DNA of 64,000 nucleotides, from contig NC_017278.1 of assembly GCF_000236585.1 (NCBI RefSeq), positions 1,426,001 through 1,490,000 on the forward strand. Reading direction: 5' to 3'. Below the pieces are notes generated by a model, which had not been told where the DNA came from, did not search any database, and saw only the letters and a list, made by a program, of their open reading frames with translations. The stretch comes from Thermus sp. CCB_US3_UF1. Lineage in GTDB: Bacteria > Deinococcota > Deinococci > Deinococcales > Thermaceae. The translations under genes were made by a program, and so were the position numbers. Below, piece by piece: positions 29,799-35,191 of this stretch. The number at the start of each line of letters is the position of its first letter. The first letter of the stretch is position 1.

Positions 29799-31625
29799 AT
29801 GGGAAGGATGGCAGGCCACCTGATCCGCAACTTCTCCATCATCGCCCACGTGGACCACGGGAAGTCCACCCTGGCCGACCGCATCCTGCAGATGACCCAT
29901 GCCGTGAGCGAGCGGGAGATGCGGGAGCAGTTTCTGGACTCCCTAGAACTGGAGCGGGAACGGGGGATCACCATCAAGGCCAGCGCAGTGCGGGTGAACT
30001 ACCGGGCCAAGGACGGGCAGGAGTACATCTTCAACCTCATCGACACCCCCGGGCACGTGGACTTCACCTACGAGGTCTCCCGGGCCCTGGCGGCGGTGGA
30101 GGGGGTCTTGCTGGTGGTGGACGCCAGCCAAGGGGTGGAGGCCCAGACCATCGCCAACTTCTACCTGGCCCTGGAGCACGAGCACACCATCATCCCCGTG
30201 GTCAACAAGATTGACCTGCCCAACGCCCGCCCCCTCGAGGTGGCCCTGGAGGTGGAGGAGGTCCTGGGCCTCCCCGCCGACGAGGCCATCTTCGCCTCCG
30301 GCAAGACGGGGGAGGGGGTGGAGGCCATCCTGGAGGCCATCGTGGCCCGCATCCCACCCCCCAAAGGGGACCCCGCGGCCCCCTTGAAGGCCCTGATCTT
30401 TGACTCCCTCTACGACGCCTACCAGGGGGTGATCCCCTACCTGCGCCTCTTTGAGGGCCAGGTGCGGCCAGGGGACCGGATCCGGGTCTGGTCCACGGGG
30501 CGGGAGTTCACCGTGGACAAGGTGGGGGTCTTCACCCCCCAGGGCCTGGTGCCCAAGGAGGCCCTGGTGGCCGGGGAGGTGGGGTGGCTCACCGCCGCCA
30601 TCCGCGACATCCACGACGTGCAGGTGGGGGATACCATCACCCTGGCCGAAAGGCCCACGGACGCCCCCTATCCTGGCTTCCGCCCGGCCAAGCCCGTGGT
30701 CTTCGCCGGGCTCTACCCGGTGGACTCTGGGGACTACGGCAAGCTCCGGGATGCCCTGGAGAAGCTGAAGCTGAACGACGCCGCCCTGGCCTTTGAGCCG
30801 GAAACCTCCTCCGCCTTGGGCTTCGGCTTCCGCTGTGGCTTCCTGGGGCTTTTGCACGCCGAGATCGTCCAGGAGCGCCTAGAAAGGGAGTTCGGCCTCT
30901 CCCTTATCGCCACCGCCCCCAGCGTGGTCTACCGGGTGCGGCTCAAGGGAGGGGAGGAGGTGGAGATCCACAACCCCGCGGACCTGCCCGACCCCACCCG
31001 GATAGAGGAGGTCCTCGAGCCCTACGTGAAGCTCACCATCTTCACCCCCGAGGAGTACGTGGGAAGCATCATGCAGTTGGTCCAGGAAAAGCGGGGCAGG
31101 CTACTGAACATGAACTACCTGCCGGGCTCGCAAAAGCGGGTGGAGCTGGTCTACGAGGCCCCCTTCGCCGAGATCCTCTACGATTTCCACGACCGCCTGA
31201 AAAGCCTTTCCCGGGGGTACGCCTCCATGGACTACGAGCAGATCGGCTACCAGCCCGGGGACCTGGTCAAGGTCAACGTGCTGGTGCACGGGGAGGTGGT
31301 GGACGCCCTCACCTTCATCGCCCACCGGGAAAAGGCCTACAGCCTGGCCCGGGCCATCGTGGACAAGCTGGCCGAGGTCATCCCCCGGCAGCTCTTTGAG
31401 GTGCCCATCCAGGCGGCCATCGGGGGCAAGATCATCGCCCGGGCCACGGTGAAGGCCCTGAGAAAGGACGTGCTGGCCAAGTGCTATGGCGGGGACGTCA
31501 CCCGCAAGAAGAAGCTTTTGGAAAAGCAAAAAGAAGGCAAAAAGCGCCTGAAGGCCATCGGCAAGGTGGAGGTGCCCCAGGAGGCCTTCTTGGCGGTGCT
31601 CTCGGCGGGAAGGGATGAGCCTTAG
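29799..31625 (+). CDS. lepA: Elongation factor 4 (LepA)
   Basis: 608 aa from 29799, or 605 from the ATG at 29808; neither has a good Shine-Dalgarno. GTPase motifs [16 protein letters not shown] and NKIDLPNA, then EF-G-like domains and the LepA-specific C-terminal domain ([32 protein letters not shown]). It binds the ribosome and affects initiation or back-translocation. The last 11 bases overlap the histidine kinase gene. Confidence 0.96.
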
Positions 31626-32598
31626 AACCAGGCTGGCCCTGGTCATCGCCCTTTTGGCCTTTCTGCCCAACCTGGTCCTGGCCCTCACCTTGGGGATCCT
31701 GGGGGCGGGGTGGTGGCTTCCCCTCTTCCTCTGGCTCCTCCTCCTGGCCCTGGTATCCGGCCTGGTGGGCTACTTCCTGGCCCAGGGCCTCCTCCGCCCC
31801 CTGGAGGAGCTCACCCGGGCCCTGGCCTACCTCTCCCTGAAGGAGGGGCCGGTGAGCGAGCTACGGCTTCCCCGTCCCCAGGAGCCCCCACCCCAGGAGA
31901 TCGCCCTCCTCCGGGATCGGTTTGAGGAGCTTTTGCAAAGGCTCCGGGGCCTCATGGAGGCCCGGGAGGCCTTCTACGGGGCCCTGGCCCACGACCTCAA
32001 GACCCCCCTCCTTTCCGCCATCCGCACCCTGGCCTACCTGGAGCGGGCGGACGGGCTGGGCAAGGAGCGCCGGGTGGAGCTCTTGCAGGGCCTAAAGGGG
32101 GAGCTGGCCGGGGCCCTGGAGCTTTTGGAAAACCTCCTGGCCCTCTCCCGCCTCGAGGCCCGCAGCCCCGCACGGGAAACCCTGAACCTGCGGGCCCTGG
32201 CGGAAGACCTCCTCCTGCGCTACCAGGAGGAGGCGAAGAGGCGGGGCTTGGCCCTGGAGGTGGAGGGGGCGGGGCTGGCCCGGGGGGAGCGGCTTTTGGT
32301 GGAAAGGGCCTTGGCCAACCTCCTGGACAACGCCCTGCGCCACGCCCGGAGCCGGGTGCGGATCCGGGTGGCGGAGGGGGCCTTGGCGGTGGAGGACGAC
32401 GGGCCCGGGCTTCCCCTGCCCCTGGAGGCCCTGGCCCTGCCCTTCCGCCAAGGCTCGGGCAACCGGGGCCAGGCGGGGCTTGGCCTCTACACCGCCAAGC
32501 GGGTGGCCGAGGCCCACGGGGGAAGGCTTGGGGTGGAGGAAAGCCCCTTGGGCGGGGCCTGCTTGCGCCTGGAACTCTCCCCCGCCACCTCCTTCTAG
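31615..32598 (+). CDS. Sensor histidine kinase, orphan
   Basis: 327 aa. Two membrane helices at the N-terminus (about 5-30 and 35-60) with almost no loop between, so no real periplasmic sensor domain. A short HAMP-like linker leads to the H-box [13 protein letters not shown] (phospho-His about 125). The N-box [11 protein letters not shown]1 VEDDGPGLP and G2 GQAGLGLY are intact. No response regulator lies beside it. It begins inside lepA (11-base overlap), so it is co-expressed with a translation factor. The stop is shared with sdaAB as the palindrome CTAG. Confidence 0.92.
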
Positions 32599-33257
32599 TC
32601 CATCACCGGGGGGATCTGCCGCACCCAGAGGATGTAGGAGAGATACTCCAGGTACTCCAGGGGCTTGGCGGTGAGGGCCCGGTCCATCTCAATGCTCATC
32701 ATGGCCTCGCCGCCCCGCTTCTTTCGGCTCACGGTGAGGTGGGCGATGTTCACCTCGTCGTCGGCCAGGATCCGGGCCACCCGGGCCACCACCCCCGGGG
32801 TGTCCACGTTGCGCACCACCAAGGTAGGGGCGGCCCCGGTGATGCGCACCTCAAACCCCTCCACGTCAAAGACCCGCACCAGCCCCCCGCCCAGGGAGCT
32901 CCCCGTCACCAAAAGGCGCTCCTTCTCTCCCTCCAGGGCCATGCGCACGGTGTTGGGGTGGACATCCCCAAGCTCCACCTCCCGGAAGACCACCTCCACC
33001 CCTTCCCTCTCGGCCAGGGCCAGGCTCTCCTTGAGCCTTTCGTCGTCGGGCCTCAGGCCCAGGATCCCCGCGGCCAGGGCCAGGTGGGTCCCATGCCCCT
33101 GGCCGGTCTTGGCGAAGGAGCCATGGAGGCCAAACTCCACCCGCTTGGGCTTTTCCCCCAAGAGGTGGCGGGCCAGGAGGGCCAGGCGGCAGGCGCCGGC
33201 GGTGTGGCTGGAAGAAGGTCCCACCATCACCGGCCCGATCATGTCTAGAAGACCCAT
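32595..33257 (-). CDS. sdaAB: L-serine dehydratase, beta subunit (iron-sulfur type)
   Basis: 220 aa. MIGPVMVGPSSSHTAGACR is the family N-terminus, with the SSSHTAG substrate loop. The C-terminal part (about 140-215, PTLVVRNVDTPGVVARVARILADDEVNIAHL) is an ACT domain. It deaminates serine to pyruvate together with the alpha subunit, which is not in the window. TATTCT on the minus strand, six bases before the ATG, is a leaderless -10 that overlaps the -10 of the divergent gene. Confidence 0.93.
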   Translation of the reverse strand: MGLLDMIGPVMVGPSSSHTAGACRLALLARHLLGEKPKRVEFGLHGSFAKTGQGHGTHLALAAGILGLRPDDERLKESLALAEREGVEVVFREVELGDVHPNTVRMALEGEKERLLVTGSSLGGGLVRVFDVEGFEVRITGAAPTLVVRNVDTPGVVARVARILADDEVNIAHLTVSRKKRGGEAMMSIEMDRALTAKPLEYLEYLSYILWVRQIPPVMD

Positions 33258-33274
33258 GCCTGTAGAATAACGCC
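33258..33274. promoter_or_regulatory. 17-bp bidirectional leaderless promoter
   Basis: The whole spacer between two divergent ATG codons is GCCTGTAGAATAACGCC. Plus strand: TAGAAT (33263-33268) then six bases then ATG. Minus strand: TATTCT (33269-33264) then six bases then ATG. The two -10 hexamers overlap by five bases. Confidence 0.65.
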
Positions 33275-35191
33275 ATGCGCGCGCTTTTGGCCGCCTTGGC
33301 CCTCCTCTCCGCCGCCTGGGCCCAGACCCTGGTGGTGCCCCCGGAGGTGCCGGCGGGCTCCCCCCTTACCCTCGAGGGCCAGAACCTCCCCCAAGGCCGC
33401 TTTCCCCTGGTGGTGGAGGGCCCCACGGGCCGCACCTCCTTGGAGGTGGAACCCCAAGGGGGAGGTTTCCGCCAGACCTTCGTCCCCCAAGCCCCAGGGG
33501 AGTACCGGGTGCGCCTCTCCCTGCCCTCGGGGCCCCTGGAAGCCCGCTTCGCCGCCCTGCCCCCCGTCCAGCCCGAGCTCACCCCCGAGGGCCTGCGCCT
33601 GCCCTGGGGGGTCCTTCCCCTGCCCGGGGGCTCCTGGCTGGGCCCCTTGGTGCAGGGGGAAAGGGTCTTCGTGGCCCAGGGGCTTTTGGTGGTGGAGGTG
33701 AGCCTCCGGAGCCAGGAGGTGGCCTACCACTTCGCCCCGGCCCGGGTGGTGGCCCTGCGCCCGGGGCCGGAGGCGGTGCTCCTGGGGGAGCGGGTGCTGC
33801 CCATCCCCTTCCCTCCCCTGCCCTTTGAGGGCACCGAGGCCGACCTAAGGGCCCTGGCCCCCCTCCTTCAGGCCCTAAACCCCCCCAAGCCCTGGCCCTA
33901 CTTCGCCTACTGGACCCAAGACCCCAAGGAGCTCAGCCCCGAGGACCTCGCGGCCTACGGCCAGGACCTGAAGGCCCGGCAGCACCGCCCGGAGCTCTTC
34001 TTCGGCCAGCCCGGGGTGCGGCGCATGGCGGAGGCCTCGAGGGCCCTGCGGCAACAGGACCCCGCCAAGGCCCGCCTCCTGGCCCAGACCCTCCTGGAGC
34101 ACACCCCCCTTTTCCCGGACTCCCTGGCCTTCTTCCAAGAAACCGCGGCCTTCCTGGAGGCCCAGGGCCAGCCCGCAGAGGCCCTGCGCTTCCGCGAGGC
34201 GGAGAAGGTGCTCCGCACCTGGCTTCCCCCTAACCTGAGCGCCCTCCCGACCACCCTAGGGGTCCTGGCCCTGGCCTACCTCCTCCTCCTGGCCTACCTC
34301 TTCCTCTTCTACCTCCCCGCCCAGCTCCGGGACCTTAGGGCCCTGGGCGGGTACCTGGGGGGCTTTCTGCGCCACCCCCTTCTGCGCCTAAGGCACCTGC
34401 ACCTGGCCTACGCCAGCCTAGGGGAGCGCTTCCTGGCCCTTTTGCTCCTCTTGGCCCTCCTCAGCCTCCTCTTTTTGGCCGGGTTCCACCAACGGGTACG
34501 GCAAAGCCTTCTGGCCCCACCCCTGGACCAGGGCACCCTGCGCAGCGAGGCGGCCTTGGAGTGGCTGCGCCAACTCCCCCCCCTTCCCGAAAGCAAGGGC
34601 CTTTTGGGCTACGCCCTCCTGCCGCAAAACCCCAAGGAGGCCCAGGCCCTCCTGAAGGCCTCCCAAGCCCCCTTCGCCCTGGCCCTGCGGGGCGAGGAGG
34701 AGGCCCTGGCCCAGGCCTACCTGAGGGCCCCCCTGGCCGGGCCCATCCGCACCGCCTTGGGGCTGGGCGAGGACCCCTGGGGGGAACGGGAGGCTGGGCC
34801 CAGCCTGCGGGACCTCTACCTGGCCCTGTTGCGGGTGGAGCTGGCCCGCTTCCAGGAAGACCCCTGGAAGGCCTTCCTCAGCCTGCCCCTGCCCCTTCCG
34901 CAAGGGCTTAGGCCCTGGGCCTTTGCCGGCCTCCTTCTCCTCCTCCTTCTCCACCTACTGGCCTTCTTCCTCCCCCGGCGCAAGGGGGCGGTGCCCCCCT
35001 CCTGGGCCCTGGCGGTGCGGCTTTTCGTCCCAGGAAGCCTCGGCTTTTCCGCAGGGGTGGGCCTCCTCCTCCTCCTCCTGGCGGCCTATGGCCTCACCGG
35101 CCTCCTCCGGGGCCAAGGGCCCTGGCCCCTCCTCCTGGCCTACGGCCTCCACCTCTTGGCGGTAGTCTGGAGCCTAAGGAGGTCCCCGTGA
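33275..35191 (+). CDS. Multi-pass membrane protein with an N-terminal exported region, function unknown
   Basis: 638 aa. Signal peptide (MRALLAALALLSAAWA|Q). An extracytoplasmic, beta-rich part (about 18-130, with an Ig-like/IPT look: VPAGSPLTLEGQNLPQGRFPLVVEGP) and a helical part (about 200-325) come next. Then there are five likely membrane helices (about 328-352, 384-405, 545-565, 585-608, 615-634) with a soluble helical insert between the second and third. I know no family with this layout; the N-terminal part hints at carrying a ligand or polymer to a transporter-like membrane part. Leaderless start. Confidence 0.8.
   Translation: MRALLAALALLSAAWAQTLVVPPEVPAGSPLTLEGQNLPQGRFPLVVEGPTGRTSLEVEPQGGGFRQTFVPQAPGEYRVRLSLPSGPLEARFAALPPVQPELTPEGLRLPWGVLPLPGGSWLGPLVQGERVFVAQGLLVVEVSLRSQEVAYHFAPARVVALRPGPEAVLLGERVLPIPFPPLPFEGTEADLRALAPLLQALNPPKPWPYFAYWTQDPKELSPEDLAAYGQDLKARQHRPELFFGQPGVRRMAEASRALRQQDPAKARLLAQTLLEHTPLFPDSLAFFQETAAFLEAQGQPAEALRFREAEKVLRTWLPPNLSALPTTLGVLALAYLLLLAYLFLFYLPAQLRDLRALGGYLGGFLRHPLLRLRHLHLAYASLGERFLALLLLLALLSLLFLAGFHQRVRQSLLAPPLDQGTLRSEAALEWLRQLPPLPESKGLLGYALLPQNPKEAQALLKASQAPFALALRGEEEALAQAYLRAPLAGPIRTALGLGEDPWGEREAGPSLRDLYLALLRVELARFQEDPWKAFLSLPLPLPQGLRPWAFAGLLLLLLLHLLAFFLPRRKGAVPPSWALAVRLFVPGSLGFSAGVGLLLLLLAAYGLTGLLRGQGPWPLLLAYGLHLLAVVWSLRRSP

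Follow-up and report, generated by a model that had tools for sequence, protein, structure and literature searches.

A 17-bp divergent spacer in Thermus as a probable -10-only bidirectional promoter of two leaderless genes

Bidirectional promoters of bacteria have transcript starts that lie 7–25 bp apart, most often 18 bp, and at the 18-bp spacing the -7T on either strand pairs with the -11A on the other strand, and the +1A of each start faces the -18T of the opposite promoter (PMC10268837; PMC12825309). The leaderless genes of Deinococcus-Thermus have a published signature of their own, which is a TANNNT motif located 6–7 bp before the start codon (PMC3160421; PMC12340547). In Deinococcus radiodurans the -10 motif alone, without a -35 element, suffices for expression, and transcripts of T. 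thermophilus rise right after the -10 motif (PMC12340547); the words bidirectional, divergent and palindrom- are absent from that study. No published transcript-start maps for Thermus were found in the literature searched.

Geometry of the sdaAB spacer and comparison with described promoters

We analyzed a window of 64,000 nucleotides from Thermus sp. CCB_US3_UF1 (contig NC_017278.1, positions 1,426,001–1,490,000), in which the ATGs of sdaAB (minus strand) and of the gene for a 638-aa membrane protein (plus strand) are separated by only 17 bp, GCCTGTAGAATAACGCC (Table 1). Two predicted -10 hexamers, TAGAAT towards the membrane-protein gene and TATTCT towards sdaAB, overlap by five bases (33264–33268) and are fused into the heptamer TAGAATA, a pseudo-symmetrical near-palindrome. 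This arrangement, with six bases between each hexamer and its ATG, had been described in the first-pass annotation and is exact in the sequence. Each arm has one private base (T33263 in the plus arm, A33269 in the minus arm), while the bases at 33264 and 33268 are shared. On both arms the gap between -10 and ATG is too short for any leader, and the predicted starts at 33257 (minus) and 33275 (plus) are 18 bp apart.

Table 1. Coordinates of the spacer, its predicted promoter elements, the flanking genes and further fused sites. Positions without a prefix refer to the window.
Feature	Position	Strand	Remarks
ATG-to-ATG spacer, putative bidirectional promoter core	33258..33274	.	Same length in G071 and in each of the 26 Thermus genomes where the genes are adjacent
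TAGAAT, predicted -10 of membrane-protein gene	33263..33268	+	Followed by AACGCC and ATG; gap 6; invariant in 27 genomes
TATTCT, predicted -10 of sdaAB	33264..33269	-	Followed by ACAGGC and ATG; gap 6; invariant in 27 genomes
sdaAB start codon (CAT on + strand)	33255..33257	-	A is the complement of 33257, the predicted minus-strand transcript start
Membrane-protein start codon ATG	33275..33277	+	A33275 is the predicted plus-strand transcript start; ATG in 27/27
sdaAB, iron-sulfur L-serine dehydratase beta subunit, 220 aa, ACT domain	32595..33257	-	TIGR00719, PF03315, PF01842
638-aa membrane protein	33275..35191	+	Predicted signal peptide, beta-rich N-terminal part, helical repeats, C-terminal hydrophobic helices
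Phosphoglucose isomerase / ManA-like (GTG on ManA side)	G000:C2:1820151-1820175 (L190:2245-3892)	divergent	Fused TAGCATA, 19 bp; recurs in most Thermus genomes
PurU / RraA-like	G000:C2:670754-670777 (L191:1512-2876)	divergent	Fused TATAGTA, 18 bp; recurs in ~20/27 Thermus genomes
Diacylglycerol kinase (GTG) / histidine phosphatase (ATG)	G000:C2:2194708-2194730 (L198:1586-3156)	divergent	TATTCTA, 17-bp spacer

With the starts taken at the ATGs, 33257 is a T on the plus strand and corresponds to position -18 of the plus promoter, and A33275 pairs with the -18T of the minus promoter; the T is present in 26 of 27 genomes and the A in all 27. The sdaAB start is GTG only in Thermus composti (G010). 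The -10 elements overlap with reciprocal -7T/-11A bases, since A33264 and T33268 serve both strands, and both are invariant in 27 genomes. Given the 18-bp distance of the predicted starts, the reciprocal pair at 33264/33268 and the A/-18T pairing, the most likely reading of the spacer is a -10-only bidirectional promoter that drives two leaderless mRNAs (probability about 0.83). Under this bidirectional reading, the primary sigma factor and RNA polymerase would bind TAGAATA in either orientation. A33264 would be the -11A of the plus promoter and pair with the -7T of the minus promoter, T33268 would be the -7T of the plus promoter and pair with the -11A of the minus promoter, and T33263 and A33269 would supply the two -12T positions. 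Transcription would begin at the A of each ATG, at 33275 on the plus and 33257 on the minus strand, yielding two leaderless mRNAs. One polymerase would occupy the site at a time, and strong exclusion between the genes would be absent.

Both arms carry TANNNT at a gap of 6 bp, which is within the 6–7 bp distance typical of leaderless genes in this lineage. For a census, genes were called by simple codon usage in stretches of the window's own genome totaling 460 kb, which gives approximate counts: TANNNT preceded the 430 candidate ATGs 48 times at gap 6 and 31 times at gap 7, as compared to 0–6 times at gaps 0–5 and 8–16. At 16–18 bp spacing, neither arm has a clear -35 hexamer (mostly 2–3 of 6 matches versus a background mean of 2.1), and a sigma-70 consensus scan detected no promoter. 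As predicted from the -10-to-ATG spacing, both genes are probably leaderless, and the initial proposal of two overlapping -10 elements for two divergent, probably leaderless genes is supported. Both ATG starts appear believable, because the alignment of SdaAB to TIGR00719 begins at residue 4 and the signal-peptide-like helix of the membrane protein is shared by its orthologues.

Compared to the bidirectional promoters with a shared pseudo-symmetrical -10 of Warman et al. 2021, as these are presented in the publications citing that work (PMC10268837; PMC12825309), the locus is alike in the 18-bp distance of the predicted starts, the reciprocal -7T/-11A bases and the +1A/-18T pairing. It differs from them in that both predicted transcripts are leaderless mRNAs, so that the start codons would supply the +1 and -18 bases, and in that no -35 is evident on either side. 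Relative to the leaderless genes of Deinococcus-Thermus (PMC3160421, PMC12340547), each arm by itself is standard (TANNNT, gap 6, ATG, no -35), whereas here two such elements on opposite strands have five bases in common.

Conservation of the heptamer and ownership of the two hexamers

The 17-bp spacer length and the heptamer TAGAATA are identical in all Thermus genomes in which the two genes are adjacent (n = 26), among them Thermus igniterrae, brockianus, arciformis, parvatiensis, scotoductus, and composti, and also in a genome of the sister genus (G071). Conservation of the spacer across other Thermus genomes, which the first-pass annotation had proposed as a check, was thereby confirmed. 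All seven heptamer columns are invariant in these 27 genomes versus 11 of 66 four-fold degenerate sdaAB sites in the same genomes, and the heptamer is hence constrained beyond shared ancestry. Its invariance could also derive from one strongly constrained direction, as the arms have two of the four key bases in common. The invariant middle triplet GAA was considered as proof of two-way constraint and rejected, because a one-sided site elsewhere in the genome (G000:C2:1499572) keeps its middle triplet too.

Genomes in which the boxes are not shared indicate which hexamer belongs to which gene. In family f4 of the same order, sdaAB and the membrane-protein gene are also divergent neighbors, with 41–73 bp between the ATGs and separate boxes. 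TANNNT is located six bases before the sdaAB ATG in all nine f4 cases and xANNNT six bases before the membrane-protein ATG in eight of nine; in the ninth sequence (L171), for which the script took an out-of-frame ATG, GAGAAT was identified by eye six bases before the next ATG. Meiothermus-type genera have the membrane-protein gene without an adjacent sdaAB; in several of these genomes TAAAAT or TAGAAT lies six bases before the membrane-protein ATG. In one Thermus genome (G014), a rearrangement of ~17 kb separates the two genes, and the membrane-protein gene retains TAGAAT and sdaAB TATGCT, each at gap 6. Because of these own gap-6 boxes in f4, Meiothermus-type genomes and G014, each hexamer can be assigned to its own gene, and the overlap is a trait of Thermus and its sister genus. 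The sdaAB side of the G014 breakpoint (L074, L075) also retains a decayed copy of the entire spacer, including the former membrane-protein start.

A single change on the SdaAB tree accounts for the fused state (support 98/93). The root of this tree was drawn at midpoint and the tree does not settle the ancestral state; f4 branches at two positions around the fused clade (91/87), which favors separate boxes as the putative ancestral state. The first-pass annotation had regarded the proposal as dependent on spacer conservation wherever gene order is kept. This holds in Thermus and the sister genus, where the spacer is fixed, but not in f4, which keeps the pair at 41–73 bp with separate boxes, and overlap is therefore not needed to keep the pair.

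Further fused sites in the genome and the genus

The 460-kb sample contains 52 divergent pairs, of which eight show a candidate leaderless -10 on each side; only in the sdaAB/membrane-protein pair are the two boxes fused. The pair is not unique in the genome as a whole, which has three more two-gene fused sites (Table 1). These likewise contain TANNNTA between two start codons that are 17–19 bp apart and recur in the genus; unlike the sdaAB site, they have one GTG start, or at least one of their two gaps is 7. A divergent AlaX-like/HEPN pair in another genome (G019) is also fused, at 18 bp. The description of the sdaAB spacer as strikingly compact was thus overstated, given these further two-gene examples and that 18 bp is the commonest spacing of divergent starts (PMC10268837; PMC12825309).

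The pattern CAT-N5-TANNNTA-N5-ATG occurs at 63 places over 27 Thermus genomes, versus ~2.4 expected from mononucleotide composition, none for the reversed pattern and one for a TA-to-AT control; the 63 places include one-sided sites such as G000:C2:1499572 and overstate the number of true pairs. Look-alike fused sites recur in most of the 27 Thermus genomes, with gene content checked for a few of them. Outside Thermus, within the window's own order, the pattern is only slightly above the reversed control. It is a tentative and rather unlikely extension that Thermus harbors a small, genus-conserved class of double-leaderless bidirectional promoters, built as a single 23–25-bp unit CAT-N5/6-TANNNTA-N5/6-ATG, in which the choice of polymerase orientation would couple the paired genes.

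One candidate sister pair, G000:C2:1499572-1499594 (L058:3001-3023), was rejected as one-sided, because its second ATG opens an 11-codon frame antisense to the apparently conserved end of the neighbor gene. No RNA was found at this site with Rfam. The leaderless -10 (TACGCT) of the 198-aa gene at this location appears to overlap the stop codon of the upstream gene and is conserved in the genus.

Gene products, competition and alternative explanations

SdaAB matches TIGR00719 (sda_beta) with 210 bits over residues 4–197 (cut-off 161). The 638-aa membrane protein has no Pfam or NCBIfam match and belongs to no recognized family, and its orthologues are present across the whole family; its predicted structure (mean pLDDT 88.5) gave no informative match to solved structures. 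In one genome (G017, L025) the frame from the membrane-protein ATG ends after 192 codons and homology resumes in another frame, due to mutation or sequencing error. The gene for the alpha subunit of serine dehydratase (G000:C2:1076986-1077744) is not linked to sdaAB and lies ~382 kb away. With the alpha subunit gene that distant and a membrane protein without family or fold match, the divergent genes encode no obvious partners. At its stop codon the membrane-protein gene shares 4 bp (35188–35191) with the GTG start of a DHDPS-family gene; these two genes therefore probably form one operon that would be transcribed from the bidirectional promoter. Downstream on the other side, sdaAB and a histidine kinase gene (plus strand, 31615–32598) are convergent and their 3' ends overlap by 4 bp (32595–32598).

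The first-pass annotation had argued that RNA polymerase can use the shared bases in either direction but not both at once, which holds for one DNA molecule, and that the two genes may hence be mutually exclusive. The latter is unsupported. Each of the five E. coli bidirectional promoters examined is too weak at basal level to cause competition; knocking down one direction scarcely helps the other, and interference was observed only when one arm was strongly activated (PMC12825309). Weak activity of both arms is also the default expectation here, because -35 elements are missing on both, and we found no evidence for a gene-pair switch. It thus seems unlikely that competition for polymerase makes sdaAB and the membrane-protein gene mutually exclusive and that the overlap was selected for this effect. 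Such a coupled switch would fit an overlap that is fixed in Thermus and its sister genus with a single origin on the SdaAB tree, and activation of one direction can repress the other in E. coli (PMC12825309); against it, neither arm has a clear -35 and both should therefore be weak, f4 retains the pair with separated boxes, the genes are no longer adjacent in G014, and no functional link between them is known.

The remaining alternatives question whether both hexamers, or either, function as promoters. One direction alone might be a real leaderless promoter, the other hexamer being incidental and its gene read from elsewhere. The conservation of one arm partly explains that of the other, as two of the four key bases are common to both hexamers, and another conserved site (G000:C2:1499572) has a spurious second ATG; yet T33263 and A33269, which serve a single arm each, do not vary, both genes have their own gap-6 -10 where the boxes are unshared, and an alternative promoter would have to sit inside the opposite gene, which makes this explanation improbable. 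That the near-palindrome is a regulator binding site and not a promoter is suggested by the pseudo-symmetry of TAGAATA and is very improbable, because seven base pairs are short for a dimeric regulator, and both the gap of exactly 6 on each side and the TANNNT peak at that gap across the genome fit a sigma factor. Chance juxtaposition has in its favor that a gap-6 -10 precedes ~11% of candidate ATGs, from which 0.65 two-sided cases would be expected among the 52 divergent pairs if independent and over all spacings. For the fused register, in contrast, the one occurrence of CAY-N5-TANNNTA-N5-RTG in the window compares to 0.03 expected from dinucleotide shuffles, and the register is conserved in 27/27 genomes with the adjacent pair, which leaves chance an extremely small probability.

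Read as a -10-only bidirectional promoter, the locus is a tidy and strongly conserved example of an already described type of two-way promoter, and its mechanism is not surprising; the leaderless genes of this lineage make such tidiness easy. It combines two known features, the leaderless -10-only promoter and the symmetrical bidirectional promoter, with the greatest economy: four specified bases and two start codons make two promoters and two translation starts. From the pattern search, a Thermus genome would contain several sites of this type. With one base private to each arm (33263, 33269) and two that are shared (33264, 33268), the site lends itself to tests of gene coupling by bidirectional promoters in a bacterium with many leaderless mRNAs.
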